Assembly (NCBI GenBank): GCA_031272035.1
Contig: JAISUO010000102.1
Coordinates: forward strand, 1 to 41,236
DNA from: Synergistaceae bacterium
GTDB lineage: Bacteria; Synergistota; Synergistia; Synergistales; Aminobacteriaceae
Reading direction: 5' to 3'
DNA length: 41,236 nucleotides
Of this stretch, positions 19,408 through 27,031 are shown piece after piece. Numbering within the stretch: position 1 is the first letter of the stretch; each line of letters starts with the position of its first letter. The position numbers and the translations under genes are program-made. A model generated the notes under the pieces. That model saw nothing but the letters and a program-made list of their open reading frames with translations, had not been told where the DNA came from and made no database searches.

Positions 19408-21414
19408 TTGAAGGTACCGAAAAAGACGGTTATGGCCGTATTTTTGCTGTTTATTTTGTTCTGTGCCGTTCCTGATCCCGCTCAGGCCGCTCCCGCCGCC
19501 GGCGGAGGGACCAATGGAAAGAGCGCCGCGGCCGCGGAAAACGCTCAGGACGAGAAAGCCCTTGTGGAAGCCGCTCAGGCCATGCGGCGCAAGGGAATCG
19601 TGTATTTCAACTTCACGGACATCGATCTCGTGAAGTTCGTCCGTTTCATGTCGGAGATTCTGGAGAAAAATATCGTGGTTCCGCCGAACATCACCGGCAA
19701 AATCACGGTCATCTCCCCCAAACCCTCCTCCATTCAGGAGGCTCAGCAGATCATGCTGTCCGTGCTTCAGACCTACGGCTGGTCCCTGCAGGACATGGGG
19801 GCGTACTTCAAACTGGCTCAGGGCGGCGTCAGCACCTCGACCCAGGTGGGCCGGGGCAAGGGCGGACCTGGGCCCGGGGAGCAAACCGTCACCCATATCG
19901 TCCCTCTCGACTACATCACTGCGGACTACGTGATCCAGGCGCTGCAGCAGGCCTTTGGACAGAACATTATCGTCCTCCCCATCGGGAACGGCCGCGACAT
20001 CATGCTGCAGGGGCGAGCCGTGGACGTCAGCAAAAGCGTCCAGATCATCCGGGACATGGACAACCCCAGAATCGCCAAAATCAGCCGGGTGTTTTCGGTG
20101 GAGCACGGAGATCCGGTGACCATCGCCAACCAGCTCAACGCCATCGCTCAGACGGGGGGACACCTTCGGGGGCTCACCGCCATTCCCGACCCCAACAGCC
20201 GGAAAATTCTCGTGGCGGCCGAACCCTCCGTTCTCGTGGGGGCGGCGCAGCTCATCCGGGAACTGGACGTCCTGCCCAGCAAAACGGGAGATTTTCATAT
20301 TTACAAACTGCAGAACATCGACGCCACAGCGGCGGCCGAGCAAATCGGCAAGGTTCTGGCGGCCTCGGCCATGCTCCAGCCCAACCAGGAGGGGAAATTC
20401 CCGGCCACCGTCGTTCCCGACGTGACCACCAACAGCCTGATCTTCGCCGCAAGCCAGAGACAGTACGACGCCCTCGAAAAAATCCTCATGGAAATCGACG
20501 TCCAGCCCAAACAGGTTCTGATTCGGGGTTTCATGGCGGAGGTCAACGTCACCAATCTGGACCGGGCCGGAATCGACTGGTCCATCATGGGAGGGCAGAT
20601 CTGGGACAACCTCATGCTGGGCGGCCTGGGTCAGCTGGGCGAGGGCAGCGTCCCCAGCCAGTTCACGGAGTGGTTCAACGAGCTGTCCCGCAGCGAGGAG
20701 CTGGTCGACCGCAACGGGTCCACCTACTCCGTGACCAACTACAAACCCCTCGCTTTGATCTACACCACCGTCGAGATGCTGAAAAAATACGACGCGGTGA
20801 ACATTCTGTCCGTTCCGCGCCTGATGTGCACCGACAACAAGGAGAGCTCGTTTCAGGTGGGACAGGTCATCCCCGTCCTGAAGGGCTCCACGTCGGACCT
20901 TTCCAACCCCGGCGCGGTCCAGCAGAGCATGGACTACAAGGACACGGGACTGACCCTGACCGTAACCCCCCACATCCGGAGCGGCAACCTGGTGGCCCTG
21001 GACATCGAGCAGACCACGGAGGACGTGCTCACCGCCACCACCTCCGTGACCCCGGTGACGGCCAAGCGCAAGGTCAAAACCTCGGTGGTCGTGGAGGATG
21101 GCGAAACCATCGTCCTGGGCGGCATCATCAAGGAAACGGAAAAATCCCTGAAACGCCGGGTACCCGGTTTTTCCTACATTCCTCTCCTGGGCGGGCTTTT
21201 TCAAAAGACCTCCAAAGAGAAGGAAAAAATCGACTTCATCATCTTCCTGACGCCTCAGATCATTCGCAATACCGAAGAGATGCGCCAGGCCACGACCCAG
21301 ACGGCCATCGAGTCCAGCGATTCGAAACGACCGGCGGCGGGTCCCATGGAGACGGAAGTGGACAGGCGTTTCTCCGAGCTTTACCAGAAAAGCATAAAGA
21401 AAAACAGAAAATGA
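19408..21414 (+). CDS. gspD: T2SS outer-membrane secretin GspD
   Basis: 668 residues. A signal peptide (about 1-27, VMAVFLLFILFCAVPDPAQA) is followed by N0/N1-N3 periplasmic domains (INFTDIDL-like start YFNFTDIDLVKFVRFMSEIL at about 60, repeats near 150-330) and the secretin core (about 370-640) with VPGFSYIPLLGGLF and the EKIDFIIFLTPQII beta-strand end. It forms the multimeric outer-membrane channel, which confirms a diderm envelope. TTG start with GAGGGTG about 7 bases upstream. No pilotin gene is seen. A 93-base spacer separates it from gspI, and its stop overlaps the gspE ATG (ATGA). Confidence 0.96.
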   Translation: MKVPKKTVMAVFLLFILFCAVPDPAQAAPAAGGGTNGKSAAAAENAQDEKALVEAAQAMRRKGIVYFNFTDIDLVKFVRFMSEILEKNIVVPPNITGKITVISPKPSSIQEAQQIMLSVLQTYGWSLQDMGAYFKLAQGGVSTSTQVGRGKGGPGPGEQTVTHIVPLDYITADYVIQALQQAFGQNIIVLPIGNGRDIMLQGRAVDVSKSVQIIRDMDNPRIAKISRVFSVEHGDPVTIANQLNAIAQTGGHLRGLTAIPDPNSRKILVAAEPSVLVGAAQLIRELDVLPSKTGDFHIYKLQNIDATAAAEQIGKVLAASAMLQPNQEGKFPATVVPDVTTNSLIFAASQRQYDALEKILMEIDVQPKQVLIRGFMAEVNVTNLDRAGIDWSIMGGQIWDNLMLGGLGQLGEGSVPSQFTEWFNELSRSEELVDRNGSTYSVTNYKPLALIYTTVEMLKKYDAVNILSVPRLMCTDNKESSFQVGQVIPVLKGSTSDLSNPGAVQQSMDYKDTGLTLTVTPHIRSGNLVALDIEQTTEDVLTATTSVTPVTAKRKVKTSVVVEDGETIVLGGIIKETEKSLKRRVPGFSYIPLLGGLFQKTSKEKEKIDFIIFLTPQIIRNTEEMRQATTQTAIESSDSKRPAAGPMETEVDRRFSELYQKSIKKNRK

Positions 21415-22976
21415 GCGTTGCAATGAATGAACCTGCCGCCGCGACTGCCTCCGATGCCATAAACGATTCCCGGACCGCGCCGGCCACCGGCGAGAAAAGC
21501 CCCGCGCTGCCCGAGGCCAAAGAAATTGCGGAACTGCTTCCCGAAAGCATGGGGCTCGACGTTCTGCGCAGCGCCAAAATCGTGCCCCTTCGCGTGGAGG
21601 ACGGCGTCCTGATCGTCGGCGCGACGTCCGTCGAGGCGTTCTCCAAAGCCCAGATGCTGGGAACGGCCATGGGTTTGCCCGTGGATCTGGAGCTGTACCC
21701 CGACCGGGACATCTCGGAGCTGCTGCGCCGGCTCTACGACATCCGAAGCGTGGCGGCGGACGAAGCGGCCAAAAATATGGAGGGCATCGAGGACATCGAC
21801 GATCTGAACCGGGAGGACGTTTTGAGCGACTCCGTGGACGTCCCCGTCATCCGTCTTGTGAACGGCCTTTTTGTGGACGCCCTGAAGCAGAGGGCCACGG
21901 ACATTCACGTGGAGCCCTACGAGGACGAGGTGCTGATCCGCTTCCGCATCGACGGAGTTCTCCAGGACCGTCTGCGTCTCCCAAGAACCCACCAGGCCCC
22001 CCTCACCAGCCGCATCAAGGTCATGTCGCGAATGGACATCGCCGAGCACATGGCCCCCCAGGACGGACGAATCGGCATCACTCTGGCGGACCACGCCGTG
22101 GACATCCGCGTGGGCCTCGTTCCGACCCAGTACGGAGAGCGGATAGCCATGCGTATGCTGGACAAGGGGCACGGGCTCCTGACTCTGGAGGACCTGGGCA
22201 TGGAGAAGGCGGAACGGGAGGTCATGGACGGACTGATCTACCGCCCCCACGGCATGATCCTTTTCACGGGTCCCACGGGATCGGGGAAAACCACCAGCCT
22301 CTACGCCATTCTTCAGGCGCTGGCCCGACCGGAAGTCAACATCATCACGGTGGAGGACCCCGTGGAGTACGCACTTCCCGGCGTCGCCCAGATTCAGGTG
22401 AACGAGAAGGCCGGCGTGACCTTCGCTTCGGCCCTGCGCTCCATCCTGCGTCAGGACCCGGACATCGTCATGATCGGAGAAATGCGGGACTTCGAAACGG
22501 CCCACATCGGCGTACAGGCGTCCCTGACCGGACATCTGGTTCTTTCGACCCTGCACACCAACGACTCCATAGGGGCGGTCATCCGTCTGGTGGACATGGG
22601 CATCGAGCCCTACCTGGCGGCGAGCTGTATCATCGGAACCGTCGCTCAGCGCCTGGCCCGGCGTCTGTGCCCTCACTGCCGCAGAGAAACCTCCGTTCCC
22701 GCGGTCATGGCCCGGCAGGGCGTCAAAACGGCCTGGGAACCCGCGGGCTGCCCCCGGTGCAACGGAACGGGATACCACGGACGTCTGGGACTTTACGAAC
22801 AGTTTGTAATCGACGAGGAAATCCAGGAGGCCATCGCCGCCGGCGCTCAGGCCTCGAAACTCCGGGAAATCGCCCGAAAGCGCAGCTTCAAGACCCTCTG
22901 GGAAATCGGGCTCGACGCCGTGGCGGCCGGAAAGACCTCTCCCGACGAGCTGATTCGAGTGGCCGGAGAGGAGTAG
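21411..22976 (+). CDS. gspE: T2SS assembly ATPase GspE
   Basis: 521 residues. An MshEN-type N-domain (about 36-115) is followed by the ATPase core: Walker A GPTGSGKTT at 287-295, Asp box DPVEYALPG, Walker B DPDIVMIGEMRD at 349-360, His box GHLVLSTLHTND at 374-385, and a zinc-binding set C420, C423, C447, C450. This cytoplasmic hexamer drives pseudopilus extension. The open frame runs upstream through gspD, but the ATG overlapping the gspD stop (21411) is the natural start; ATG 21423 is a possible alternative. It is followed by gspF after 4 bases. Confidence 0.96.
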   Translation: MSVAMNEPAAATASDAINDSRTAPATGEKSPALPEAKEIAELLPESMGLDVLRSAKIVPLRVEDGVLIVGATSVEAFSKAQMLGTAMGLPVDLELYPDRDISELLRRLYDIRSVAADEAAKNMEGIEDIDDLNREDVLSDSVDVPVIRLVNGLFVDALKQRATDIHVEPYEDEVLIRFRIDGVLQDRLRLPRTHQAPLTSRIKVMSRMDIAEHMAPQDGRIGITLADHAVDIRVGLVPTQYGERIAMRMLDKGHGLLTLEDLGMEKAEREVMDGLIYRPHGMILFTGPTGSGKTTSLYAILQALARPEVNIITVEDPVEYALPGVAQIQVNEKAGVTFASALRSILRQDPDIVMIGEMRDFETAHIGVQASLTGHLVLSTLHTNDSIGAVIRLVDMGIEPYLAASCIIGTVAQRLARRLCPHCRRETSVPAVMARQGVKTAWEPAGCPRCNGTGYHGRLGLYEQFVIDEEIQEAIAAGAQASKLREIARKRSFKTLWEIGLDAVAAGKTSPDELIRVAGEE

Positions 22977-22980
22977 AATC

Positions 22981-24135
22981 GTGCCTTCTTTTAACTATTC
23001 AGGATACGACAGCCGGGGGAAGCAGACAAAGGGAACCCTGGAGGCCTCCTCTTCCGCTCAGGCCGTGGAGCGTCTGACGGAGCGGGGCGTGGTGGTGGTC
23101 GAAATCTCTCAGGCAGAGGAAAAAGCGGTTCGCTACGACAGAAAACGCCCTTTGTCCCTTGACGTTCACATCATGTTCTGCCGTTCTCTGGCCTCCTACC
23201 TGAAATCGGGGCTTCCTCTGGCCGACGCCCTCAAAATTCTGGGCCGTCAGAGCCGGGACAGGCGCATCGCCGCGGCGTTCGACGGCGTGCTTCGAGACGT
23301 GGTGGGAGGGAAAAAATTCCACACCGCCCTGGCGGAAAGCGGGGCCTTCCTCGAAAGCCTGTGGCGGGTGGTGGAGTCGGGGGAGCAAAGCGGCTCTCTC
23401 ATCGCCGTTCTGGAGCAGTCCGCCGCCCAGTTCCGCATGGAGGCGTCCCTGAAGCGCAGGATCAAAAGCGCCATGACCTACCCCGTCGTCATGATCGTGG
23501 TGGGTGTGGGAGTCGTGGCTTTCCTCCTGACCTTCGTCGTGCCGAAACTGGCCGCGATGTTTCAGGATCTGGGGCAGACTCTGCCTCTTCCCACCCGGCT
23601 TCTGCTGGCGCTTTCGAGCTTCCTCAACAGCTTCGGACTGCCCATCCTGATCGCGATTCTCGTTTTCTGGCTGATCCAGAAACGCCGCGGCAAAAAATTC
23701 TCGCTGCCCTTCATGAAGGGAATCCGCGAACGTCTGACCCTGGCTTTGATCATGTCCCACCTGGCCACGCTTCTGAAATCCGGCATTCCCCTGGTGCAGG
23801 GGCTGCGCATGGCCTCCTCCATGGACGTCCGCCCCCAAAAATGGCTGAACATCGCCGACCTGGTCAAAGCGGGGCATCGCTTCGACAAAGCCCTGGAAAA
23901 AGAGGGCTTCGACGAAGATGTGGTCTACGTGGTTCGGGTGGGCGAAATGGGAGGAGACCTGACGGAAGCCCTCACCAACGTGGGGCAGAACAACTGGGAG
24001 ATCGCCCAGGCCCAGATGGAACGTCTCGCAACTTTGATGGAACCCGCAATGGTACTGATTCTCGGTTTTGCGGTCGGTTTTATCGTTCTGGCGATACTTT
24101 TGCCGATTCTGAATCTCTCCGGCATGGTAAAGTAA
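22981..24135 (+). CDS. gspF: T2SS inner-membrane platform protein GspF
   Basis: 384 residues with two homologous GspF domains (about 60-185 and 255-380), each ending in hydrophobic helices (VMIVVGVGVVAFLLTFVVPKLA; LPILIAILVFWLI; MVLILGFAVGFIVLAILLPIL). Family signs include FCRSLASYLKSGLPLADAL and SHLATLLKSGIPLVQGL. It is the polytopic core of the assembly platform that contacts GspE. GTG start with GAGGAG 7 bases upstream. Confidence 0.96.
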   Translation: MPSFNYSGYDSRGKQTKGTLEASSSAQAVERLTERGVVVVEISQAEEKAVRYDRKRPLSLDVHIMFCRSLASYLKSGLPLADALKILGRQSRDRRIAAAFDGVLRDVVGGKKFHTALAESGAFLESLWRVVESGEQSGSLIAVLEQSAAQFRMEASLKRRIKSAMTYPVVMIVVGVGVVAFLLTFVVPKLAAMFQDLGQTLPLPTRLLLALSSFLNSFGLPILIAILVFWLIQKRRGKKFSLPFMKGIRERLTLALIMSHLATLLKSGIPLVQGLRMASSMDVRPQKWLNIADLVKAGHRFDKALEKEGFDEDVVYVVRVGEMGGDLTEALTNVGQNNWEIAQAQMERLATLMEPAMVLILGFAVGFIVLAILLPILNLSGMVK

Positions 24136-24224
24136 ATGCCGACCGGCGCAGGAAGGCCTATAATGATTCCGGGCAGGAGTTCTTTTCGTGCCCCGTACAA
24201 TAATAATCCAACAGGGAGGTCTGT
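24136..24224 (+). promoter_or_regulatory. Gap before gspG with possible internal promoter
   Basis: This 89-base gap contains TATAAT at about 24161-24166 and TACAAT at about 24199, but no convincing -35 for either. Extra transcription of gspG, the major pseudopilin, would make sense. GGGAGG lies 5 bases before the gspG ATG. Confidence 0.35.
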
Positions 24225-24713
24225 ATGATGCAAAAAAACGTCGGTGAACGACGCGGAGTTTCCTTCGATTCCGAAAACATCAAACCCCAAAGACGCAGAA
24301 AGGCGTTCACTCTGATCGAAATCATGGTCGTGGTGGTGATTTTGGGTATTCTGGCCACGGTCGCCACCGTTCAGGTCGTAGCCCGTCTGGAAGAAGCGCG
24401 CCGCACCACGACGAAGGCCCAGATCGAGGCGTTCGTCACGGCCCTTGACATGTACCGTCTGCACAACGGCGTCTACCCCACGACCCAGCAGGGCCTCGAC
24501 GCTCTGGTGAAAAAGCCCGTCACGTCCCCCATCCCCAAACGCTACCCGGAGGAACCCTACATGAAAAATATCCCCGACGACCCCTGGGGCAACCCCTACA
24601 TCTACCGCTGCCCCGGCGAGCGCGGCGCCTACGACATCATCTCCACAGGGCCCGACGGCGAAGAGGGCGGCGAGGGCAGAAACGCGGACATCAACAACCA
24701 CGACCCGCTGTAA
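24225..24713 (+). CDS. gspG: T2SS major pseudopilin GspG
   Basis: 162 residues. A long leader (about 27 residues, ending PQRRRKA) precedes FTLIEIMVVVVILGILATV, with Glu at +5. The C-terminal part has the GspG hallmarks YPTTQQGLDALV, DDPWGNPYIY and GAYDIISTGPDGEEGG (calcium-binding loop). It is the main subunit of the pseudopilus. The residue before the cut is Ala instead of the usual Gly, the same as in the gspJ-like gene. The prepilin peptidase that would process it is not in the window. Confidence 0.95.
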   Translation: MMQKNVGERRGVSFDSENIKPQRRRKAFTLIEIMVVVVILGILATVATVQVVARLEEARRTTTKAQIEAFVTALDMYRLHNGVYPTTQQGLDALVKKPVTSPIPKRYPEEPYMKNIPDDPWGNPYIYRCPGERGAYDIISTGPDGEEGGEGRNADINNHDPL

Positions 24714-24727
24714 AGCTGAAGTTCATC

Positions 24728-25219
24728 ATGCGATTTTCCCGACGGCGGGGTTTCACTCTGATCGAGCTCACGATCGTGATGGTCATCATCGCTCTGGCGG
24801 CGGTCATGGTCATGCCGAAGGGGTTTCTTTCCTTCGAGTCCCCCATGCGCGGTCTGCAGCGGACGGTGATGGAGCTGTCCGACCTGGCCCTCGACGGCGT
24901 CAGCGTGCGAATGAGGCTCGATGCTTCCGAAAGAGACGAGAGAGGCCCTGTCGTTATCGAAGGCTTCATGCAGGTCGAAGATCCTTTCGACCCCACAAGG
25001 CGCACTCTGGAGTGGAAACCACTGACGACGCGCTATCCGCTGGCGGGGAACGGCTGGCGTCTGGAGCCGCCTGTCATCTATTTTTTCAGGGACGGAACCT
25101 GTACGCCGGCACGCATCATGCGGGCGGATCGGAATACCCGCCTCTCGGAGGGAGAATCCGCGCTGCTGACCGTAACGGGCTATCTCTTCGAGGAAACCGG
25201 CCGGCAGAGTCGACTGTAA
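24728..25219 (+). CDS. gspH: T2SS minor pseudopilin GspH-like
   Basis: 163 residues. Leader MRFSRRRG, then FTLIELTIVMVIIALAAVMVMP with Glu at +5. The C-terminal domain is beta-rich without clear motifs. Size and position after gspG fit GspH. It is the last gene of the T2SS run, 14 bases after gspG. The next 460 bases lack a long gene. Confidence 0.85.
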   Translation: MRFSRRRGFTLIELTIVMVIIALAAVMVMPKGFLSFESPMRGLQRTVMELSDLALDGVSVRMRLDASERDERGPVVIEGFMQVEDPFDPTRRTLEWKPLTTRYPLAGNGWRLEPPVIYFFRDGTCTPARIMRADRNTRLSEGESALLTVTGYLFEETGRQSRL

Positions 25220-25275: not shown

Positions 25276-25330
25276 TACCGATAAAAATCTGCGCAAAAAT
25301 AGCCGACCGCTATAAAAAGGAGGGTTTGTC

Positions 25331-25456
25331 ATGGCTGTTTTATTTTCGGGCGTTACCTGATGTGAAGCGTCCAATGCACGGGTCTGCATTTACGGATCGA
25401 CGGAGAAAAGCAGAACGGCCATGAGCGACACTCCAGCTTTAAATCTGGAAATTTGA
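25331..25456 (+). CDS. Candidate 41-residue selenocysteine-containing leader peptide or mini-selenoprotein
   Basis: AAGGAGG is followed 7 bases later by ATG 25331. The frame reads MAVLFSGVT, then UGA (25358-25360), then CEASNARVCIYGS and 18 further residues to a UGA at 25454. If the first UGA is read as selenocysteine, the product is 41 residues with Sec10 next to Cys11 and another Cys at 19. Directly after the UGA is a hairpin with bacterial SECIS geometry (25368-25399). The next genes, yedE and the yedF-like gene, belong to selenium metabolism. The frame is too short for a computed ORF list and stops at nine codons under the standard code. I do not recognise a family. It may be a regulatory leader that senses Sec-tRNA, or a small redox protein. 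Sec insertion itself is inferred. Confidence 0.55.
25361..25399 (+). promoter_or_regulatory. SECIS-like hairpin
   Basis: Starting right after the UGA: a 6-bp stem AATGCA/TGCATT (25373-25378 with 25385-25390) closes the loop CGGGTC. A lower stem TCC/GGA and CG/CG is interrupted by a TAC and a T bulge on the 3' side. The apical loop begins 18 bases after the UGA, has G among its first two bases and contains GGTC between TGCA arms, much like the tip of the E. coli fdhF SECIS. The 5' bulged U known from fdhF is absent. Confidence 0.6.
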
Positions 25457-25497
25457 ATTTGGAGATTTTGACCCGATATTTTTGATCTGAAAATTTT

Positions 25498-25546: not shown

Positions 25547-25679
25547 ATTTTTTGTCCTCCGCTCCGCGTTCTTCATCGTTTTTTCTCCGAATCGATTCTG
25601 TCCCCTGCTCTCAAAATCGCAAAATCTGTAAAAAAATATATTGTTCAGGATTCAGGAAATCATTGGAGGTGGATGTGTT
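25547..25679 (+). other. Gap before yedE
   Basis: A pyrimidine-rich stretch with a possible TATATT -10 near 25637 but no matching -35. GGAGG at 25665-25669 precedes the yedE ATG by 10 bases. A nearer ATG at 25673 opens only a four-codon frame that overlaps the yedE start by two bases. Confidence 0.4.
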
Positions 25680-26777
25680 ATGGATAAAATTTTGACGTCC
25701 CGTCAGGGGCCATTGGTGGCCGGCGGGGTGCTTGGCGCTTTGGCGGCTCTGCTGGTCTGGTGGGGAAACCCCGCCAACATGGGGTTCTGCGCGGCCTGTT
25801 TCACCCGCGACATCGCGGGGGCTCTGGGGCTTCACCGGGCGGGTATCGTTCAGTATCTGCGGCCTGAAATTCCCGCCGCGATTCTCGGCGCCTTCGCGTC
25901 GGCTCTGTTCTTTCGGGAGTACGCCCCCCGGGGCGGATCGTCTCCGCTGGTGCGCTTCTTCCTGGGGGTCTGCGCCATGTTCGGCGCTCTCGTTTTTCTG
26001 GGATGCCCCTGGAGGGCCTACCTTCGCGTGGCCGGCGGAGACTGGAACGCGCTTTACGGAATCGGCGGTCTGGCCGTCGGCGCGCTGATCGGCATCGCGT
26101 TTCTGTGGAACGGCTTCAGCCTGGGAGCTGCCGAACGCAATCCCAAGGCCACAGGGCTGGTCATGCCCGTCATCGCCGTCATCCTGCTGGCCCTCGTGGT
26201 CCTGAAGCCCCTTTTCGGACCGGTCGGTTCCGACGGAGCGGCAACGGGACCCATCTTCTTCTCCAAAGAGGGACCAGGGGCCGCCCACGCGCCCTTCCTG
26301 ATCTCCCTGGCCGGAGGGCTCATCATCGGCTGGCTGGCCCAGCGCAGCCGCTTCTGCACCGTTGGCGCGCTTCGCGACCTCTTCATGCTGAGGGACGGCT
26401 ACCTGTTCCGGGGCATCGTCTCCTTCACCGTCGCGGCCTTCGTGGTCAACTACGCCCTGGGGCAGTTTCATCCGGGTTTTGAAAAACAGCCCATCGCCCA
26501 CACGCAGGAGCTTTGGAACTTCCTGGGCATGGTGCTGTCGGGGCTGGCTTTCACGCTGGCCGGCGGCTGTCCCGGTCGTCAGCTCATCATGGCGGGTGAG
26601 GGCGACGCCGACGCAGGGGTTTTCGTTCTGGGACTGCTGACGGGAGCCGCGTTCGCCCACAACTTCAGCGCCGCGTCCAGCGGAGCCGGAGTGGGCCCCT
26701 GGGGGATTCCGGTCACCATCGCCAGCCTTGTGGTCTGTCTCCTGATCGGTTTCAGCTGCACCAGGAAACAGGCCTGA
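25680..26777 (+). CDS. yedE: Selenium metabolism membrane protein YedE (FdhT-type transporter)
   Basis: 365 residues with about ten hydrophobic segments, two YeeE/YedE repeats. The N-terminal stretches NMGFCAACFTRDIAGALGLH and RFFLGVCAMFGALVFLGCPW are hallmarks of the selenium-associated YedE family rather than the thiosulfate YeeE branch. Conserved Cys in CAAC, GCP, FCT and GGCPGRQ probably line the path for a selenium or sulfur compound. The frame opens earlier (TTG 25641) but ATG 25680, with GGAGG about 10 bases before, fits the family start. It is followed after 35 bases by the yedF-like gene, the usual partner. The upstream UGA-containing leader strengthens a selenium role. Confidence 0.88.
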   Translation: MDKILTSRQGPLVAGGVLGALAALLVWWGNPANMGFCAACFTRDIAGALGLHRAGIVQYLRPEIPAAILGAFASALFFREYAPRGGSSPLVRFFLGVCAMFGALVFLGCPWRAYLRVAGGDWNALYGIGGLAVGALIGIAFLWNGFSLGAAERNPKATGLVMPVIAVILLALVVLKPLFGPVGSDGAATGPIFFSKEGPGAAHAPFLISLAGGLIIGWLAQRSRFCTVGALRDLFMLRDGYLFRGIVSFTVAAFVVNYALGQFHPGFEKQPIAHTQELWNFLGMVLSGLAFTLAGGCPGRQLIMAGEGDADAGVFVLGLLTGAAFAHNFSAASSGAGVGPWGIPVTIASLVVCLLIGFSCTRKQA

Positions 26778-26812: not shown

Positions 26813-27031
26813 ATGAACGACGTCATTACCATCGACACTTCGGGGCTCTCCTGCCCTCAGCCCGTTATAGAGCTCAAAAAGGTTCTCGATAAAACGCCCT
26901 CCGGCAGGGTGGAGGTTCTCGTGGACACCGCGACTTCCCGCAACAACGTCGCCCGCTTCGCCGGGGACAAAGGCTGGAAAACCACCCTGGAGGAACGCGA
27001 CGGAGGCTACAAAGTCATTCTGGAAAAATGA
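26813..27031 (+). CDS. yedF: TusA/SirA-fold sulfurtransferase-like protein (YedF N-domain type)
   Basis: 72 residues covering one TusA/SirA domain. IDTSGLSCPQPVIELKKVLD holds the conserved CPxP active-site Cys (about residue 14) that carries persulfide or perselenide. Selenium-linked YedF proteins are usually about 200 residues with a second DsrE-like domain, which is missing here with a normal stop codon, so this is a single-domain version or a plain TusA-like partner. AGGAGG lies 9 bases before ATG. It follows yedE in one transcript and is closed by a good terminator. Confidence 0.85.
   Translation: MNDVITIDTSGLSCPQPVIELKKVLDKTPSGRVEVLVDTATSRNNVARFAGDKGWKTTLEERDGGYKVILEK

Follow-up and report, generated by a model that had tools for sequence, protein, structure and literature searches.

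A probable selenocysteine-gated leader reading frame in front of yedE and other selenium genes

Bacterial SECIS elements of the fdhF and selD type combine a UGA codon, a spacer of about 10-13 nt and a short stem with an apical GG(U/C) or GU loop, in genomes that have SelB and SelC. The element analyzed here, found in a 41 kb stretch of DNA (the window) of which both strands were scanned, shares all of this, but it sits in a non-conserved open reading frame (ORF) of about 23-66 codons rather than in a selenoprotein gene. With the amino-acid attenuation leaders (trp, his, leu) it shares a short ORF that needs one charged tRNA, placed before genes for that nutrient, and predicted competing RNA pairings. 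Its gate, however, would be recoding versus termination at a single UGA with a SECIS, where those leaders rely on stalling at several successive codons, and a transcription terminator is not general among these leaders. As in the translation attenuation leaders of ermC and cat, the position of the ribosome on the leader ORF would alter pairing around a downstream ribosome-binding site (RBS), whereas the signal in the mechanism proposed here is selenocysteine (Sec) supply and not an antibiotic.

A further relative comes from E. coli, where the 5' UTR of selAB holds a SECIS-like element that, as Thanbichler and Boeck reportedly showed in 2002, acts via SelB binding and involves no translated Sec codon. 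It too is a SECIS-type RNA before a selenium gene, with a proposed feedback on Sec supply, but the leader described here keeps an apparently translated ORF with a UGA. The earlier note, made from the sequence of the window, knew of no described family of this kind. We likewise found no description of a Sec-decoding leader in a full-text search of the open-licence literature or in the newest selenoproteome review (PMC13188914).

The leader frame and its genomic setting

The leader ORF occupies positions 25331-25456 of the forward strand, on which all features listed here lie, and encodes 41 residues including Sec, plus a stop codon; a frame is present at the homologous position in loci L003, L004, L005, L006 and L008. 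Its Shine-Dalgarno sequence, AAGGAGGG, lies at 25317-25324 and has a counterpart in all relatives, where it was required by the search rule. The ATG (25331-25333) opens a run of nine sense codons, Met counted (MAVLFSGVT), which is followed by the UGA at 25358-25360. This codon is predicted to specify Sec from the UGA-specific enrichment and the open frame beyond it in relatives and from the selA, selB, selC and selD genes of the genome. The complete peptide would read MAVLFSGVT-U-CEASNARVCIYGSTEKSRTAMSDTPALNLEI, with 31 open codons after the UGA and a UGA stop at 25454-25456. A SECIS-like hairpin, AAUGCA(CGGGUC)UGCAUU, starts 12 nt past the UGA (25373-25390), as judged from its fold, from covariation in relatives and from a geometry like that of the SelD SECIS of the same genomes. 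The segment 25358-25390 thus holds an in-frame UGA followed, within the 8-17 nt expected of a SECIS, by a stem-loop with a G-rich GG/GU apical loop. The earlier note had recognized the whole series, from Shine-Dalgarno sequence to the 31 further codons, and we find it as described, except that the loop it gave as GGTC is CGGGUC, of which GGUC forms the last four bases.

The folding energy of the hairpin is unremarkable by itself (z around 0 against shuffled sequences), so that proof must rest on comparison. A search of Rfam 15 gave chance matches only and no curated family for the element. The motif of a Shine-Dalgarno sequence with AUG, at most 12 codons, UGA, a GG/GU-loop hairpin and at least 18 open codons has one match on the two strands of the window, which is the element at 25331.

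The gene downstream, yedE (25680-26777; TIGR04112, 473 bits, cut-off 200), encodes a predicted selenium-related transporter (PMC5322559). Its Shine-Dalgarno sequence GGAGG (25665-25669) is predicted to be mostly paired, with a mean unpaired probability of 0.06 in the free leader. It is followed by a small SirA/TusA-like gene (26813-27031) whose similarity to YedF is confined to the N-terminal part (61.7 bits, under the TIGR03527 cut-off of 110); a full two-domain YedF adjoins selAB on another contig of this genome (L244:6885-7520). Just upstream of the leader, positions 20670-25219 carry genes resembling a type II secretion or type IV pilus cluster, and similar genes precede a yedE without leader in genome G006 (L007).

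The machinery for Sec insertion, which the earlier note had proposed to look for, is present in the genome with all four components: SelB (TIGR00475, 358 bits) and SelA (TIGR00474, 544 bits) are encoded side by side, tRNA-Sec scores 75.9 bits and is called tRNA-SeC by ARAGORN, and SelD contains an internal UGA. GrdA also has an in-frame UGA, at CFV-U-TAAGAMDL. One large genus of the same family has selC next to yedE in many of its genomes. In genus g17 (G029, G067, G070, G072, G101 and others; e.g., locus L014) selC adjoins yedE-yedF, and most genomes of this genus that have no yedE also have no selC above the cut-off.

Conservation of the leader and decoding of its UGA

For comparison we used 149 distinct yedE 5' regions, drawn from additional members of the order and from named genomes in other phyla. 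The search rule called for a Shine-Dalgarno sequence, a start codon, at most 14 codons, the tested codon and a GG/GU-loop hairpin 8-16 nt later. At the strict score of at least 14, the architecture was found 41 times with UGA, once with UAA and never with UAG. When the motif and an open frame were required on both strands of 1.17 Mb, there were 57 matches for UGA, 7 for UAA and 5 for UAG, where the 57 are hits and not independent elements, since some loci overlap; all but a few of them precede yedE. Frame and hairpin thus recur upstream of related yedE genes, a point that the earlier note had proposed to check.

The phyla with yedE leaders are Synergistota, Chloroflexota and Desulfobacterota. 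At the corresponding position, the two other genomes of the window's genus carry MFLGVT-U-CAYSNARVCING and MFPGVT-U-RASSNARVCIDG, and the frames before yedE in further genera of the family begin with MFSRVT-U, MFSGFT-U and MFFGVT-U. More distant examples are LSMLSVIDRR-U with hairpin GGAUGCG(GGUUC)CGCAUUC in Acetomicrobium (L077), MTYRCR-U with GAGUGCG(GGUUC)CGCACUC in Thermovirgaceae (L079), and MT-U with GGCUCG(UGUAC)CGAGUC in another Synergistales family (L167). Chloroflexi provide MLMHRRT-U with GCUGCAC(GGU)GUGCAGC (L139) and MRVLNRRT-U with GAUGCAU(GUU)GUGCAUC (L084), and a Syntrophales genome has MIVMNRRT-U (L082). The leader is absent upstream of many yedE genes in this order (e.g., L018-L030). 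Very short MT-UGA or even AUG-UGA frames with a good Shine-Dalgarno sequence precede yedE in L010, L011, L012, L017, L044, L047, L015 and L052; several of them have no GG/GU loop, and they are possibly reduced forms of the leader.

Leaders are also found in front of other selenium genes. In G006 the frame VAKFTGFT-U directly precedes an operon of the SAO (Sec-assisted organometallic) system, comprising saoT, a saoE-saoC fusion, saoX, saoB and saoP, and no in-frame UGA was seen in the parts of this operon examined. The operon lies on the minus strand of contig 101 (L245, 4377-3); its fused saoE and saoC share a single frame, and cysteine stands at the candidate Sec sites seen, with the UGA leader directly in front. 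Similar leaders before saoT in G024 and Fretibacterium fastidiosum bring the SAO cases to three genomes. G054, which gave no yedE hit, has a leader before selD (L274) that is nearly the same as the yedE leader of its sister genome G045, where leader, yedE and selD follow in a row. The other 28 selD upstream regions contain no leader and serve as a control for specificity. As with attenuation leaders, a short ORF, whose translation is suggested by frame conservation, thus stands upstream of genes for the same nutrient (yedE, the SAO operon and selD).

Decoding of the UGA is indicated most strongly by the open frame behind it. This frame stays open for at least 20 codons in 41/41 leaders, or 27/27 after removal of redundancy, and openness was no part of the rule by which the 41 leaders were selected. 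The other two frames are open over this length in 18/27 (+1) and 12/27 (+2) leaders (Fisher 6e-6), and 38% of background UGAs of the same regions are followed by at least 20 open codons. The stems agree with this, with 92.8% of cells paired and all seven pairs changed on both sides; the compensatory changes looked for by the earlier note are therefore present. Stem covariation is 0.80, versus 0.31 for shuffled sequences and 0.03-0.22 for sliding controls, a count that leans in favour since the 41 leaders had been picked for a hairpin. It was derived from 19-mers around the hairpin, as the UGA came out misaligned when whole UGA-hairpin stretches were aligned with MAFFT.

As a comparator of known type we used the SECIS of SelD in place of that of GrdA, because the bona fide grdA SECIS of the window's genome could not be resolved to a hairpin of the leader type. 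Of the 30 loci examined, 29 encode SelD as a selenoprotein with a UGA, which holds for nearly all Synergistota covered (L274-L302). Its SECIS in the same order typically lies 10-12 nt after the UGA and has five to seven pairs and mostly a GGC loop; the near-invariant AGGUCC(GGC)GGACCU has the same layout as the leader hairpins. Taken together, the comparative sequence data strongly support read-through of the leader UGA, and with the Sec machinery and the related frames with their covarying hairpin they also lend support to the selenium sensor or leader that the earlier note had proposed.

Proposed control by Sec supply and its sign

The element is probably a Sec-gated leader ORF that controls selenium genes. 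Ribosomes would start at the AUG at 25331 and arrive at the UGA at 25358. Given a sufficient supply of Sec-tRNA and SelB, the SECIS hairpin would direct Sec insertion, and 20-56 further codons (31 in the window) would be translated. This read-through would unwind the hairpin together with a segment that can otherwise pair with the leader's own RBS (25416-25435 in the window, duplex z = -3.9). When Sec is lacking, termination at the UGA would leave the segment free to pair, and it could close the leader RBS. The end point of the ribosome would in this way report Sec supply to the downstream selenium gene or genes, here yedE with its largely paired RBS, and we infer that yedE output changes with leader read-through.

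Complementarity between the leader RBS and a segment within the read-through frame was found across the leaders, with a mean z of -1.54 (17/40 below -2, none above 2) as compared to -0.20 for reversed-RBS controls (2/40 below -2). The segment often ends at the second stop. Ribosomes that pass the UGA would move through it and keep it open, and termination at the UGA would let it close the leader. The yedE RBS is predicted to be mostly paired across leaders as well (mean unpaired 0.20). An anti-Shine-Dalgarno strand common to leader and yedE was considered and rejected, as the mean z was only -0.5. General transcription attenuation was discarded too, since terminators occur in few leaders and predictions for the window and L251 are opposite. 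In the window, the weak terminator-like hairpin over the second stop codon (25431-25464) is doubtful, being followed by only four Us. Locus L115 has a perfect 11-bp intrinsic terminator between leader and yedE (ACGTCCTCTGC...GCAGAGGACGT TTTTTT, 103-130 nt past the leader UGA).

As to the sign of control, we lean weakly toward negative feedback, with yedE on when Sec is scarce. This preference comes from three observations. Only L251 has a clear attenuator, in which the antiterminator arm contains the second stop codon; read-through with Sec would there be expected to promote termination. The leader before selD in L274 would mean positive feedback if read-through switched genes on. Finally, yedE mRNA of Methanococcus maripaludis rises by 5.28 log2 units on selenium depletion (PMC11097638), although this response belongs to another domain and probably to another mechanism. 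The same three observations speak against the opposite sign, by which read-through would turn yedE on if YedE exports or buffers excess selenium. This is a variant of the Sec-gated leader, whose likelihood overlaps with it, and it is a possible but less likely arrangement. It would fit the proposal that YedE is an exporter (PMC5322559), and also the position of the second stop, which in the window, L003 and L031 falls within or at a terminator-like hairpin. Read-through also raises predicted accessibility of the yedE RBS in 45% and lowers it in 16% of 31 leaders, which is not significant (p = 0.11).

Other readings of the frame and meaning of the leader

If the UGA is read as Sec, the frame could instead encode a genuine small selenoprotein, with the Sec peptide itself acting, e.g., as a redox helper of YedE or YedF. 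The translation through the UGA suggested by the open frames would suit such a protein, as would a G-[VFY]-T-U core that recurs in Synergistaceae before both yedE and SAO, and changes before the UGA in genus g1 that fall mostly at third codon positions. Past the hairpin, however, substitutions in related pairs are spread evenly over the codon positions (33/38/39), and the spacer between the UGA and the hairpin AAUGCACGG...UGCAUU measures 12 nt in the window but 13 nt in L038 and L251, which places the same hairpin sequence in two different reading frames. Both observations argue for a leader and not a selenoprotein. The peptides differ fully between groups, from MT-U-... to MAVLFSGVT-U-..., with unrelated tails; the leader peptide matches nothing in Pfam or NCBIfam, and no conserved protein family in which homologues have Cys in place of Sec was recognized for the ORF. 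A selenoprotein is therefore improbable, and the 41-residue selenoprotein that the earlier note offered beside the sensor is not upheld, nor does a conserved Sec-Cys motif run through the family.

Slightly less probable still is an RNA that binds SelB in the manner reported for E. coli selAB, where hairpin-bound SelB would repress and read-through would be incidental. The conserved SECIS geometry agrees with that precedent, but all 41 leaders retain the start codon and the UGA, followed by an open frame of 20 codons or more, which simple binding of SelB would not require. An ordinary upstream ORF ending in UGA, or a chance look-alike of a SECIS, is very improbable given the bias for UGA over UAA and UAG both in the yedE 5' regions and in the 1.17 Mb, where the UGA matches nearly all precede yedE, and the frame open past UGA in every leader, even if the single-sequence fold is no better than shuffled.

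We regard the Sec-decoding leader as real and widespread, and as apparently undescribed, and a regulatory role is likely. We consider it reasonably likely that these leaders are cis-regulators that cross phyla, in which UGA/SECIS decoding in a throw-away ORF serves as selenium sensor for yedE, SAO and selD operons, and that they form a class of leader peptides gated by stop-codon recoding. Little is known of how selenium is sensed in bacteria, and a transporter dedicated to selenium has yet to be established (PMC5322559, PMC11097638). A leader whose read-through depends on Sec would gauge the end product of the pathway directly, and it would offer a way to learn which signals act on YedE and the SAO system. 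It would also reveal short UGA-containing ORFs that selenoprotein finders, which seek conserved proteins, would miss, and it would add the 21st amino acid to those covered by leader-peptide control, the switch being recoding and not ribosome stalling.
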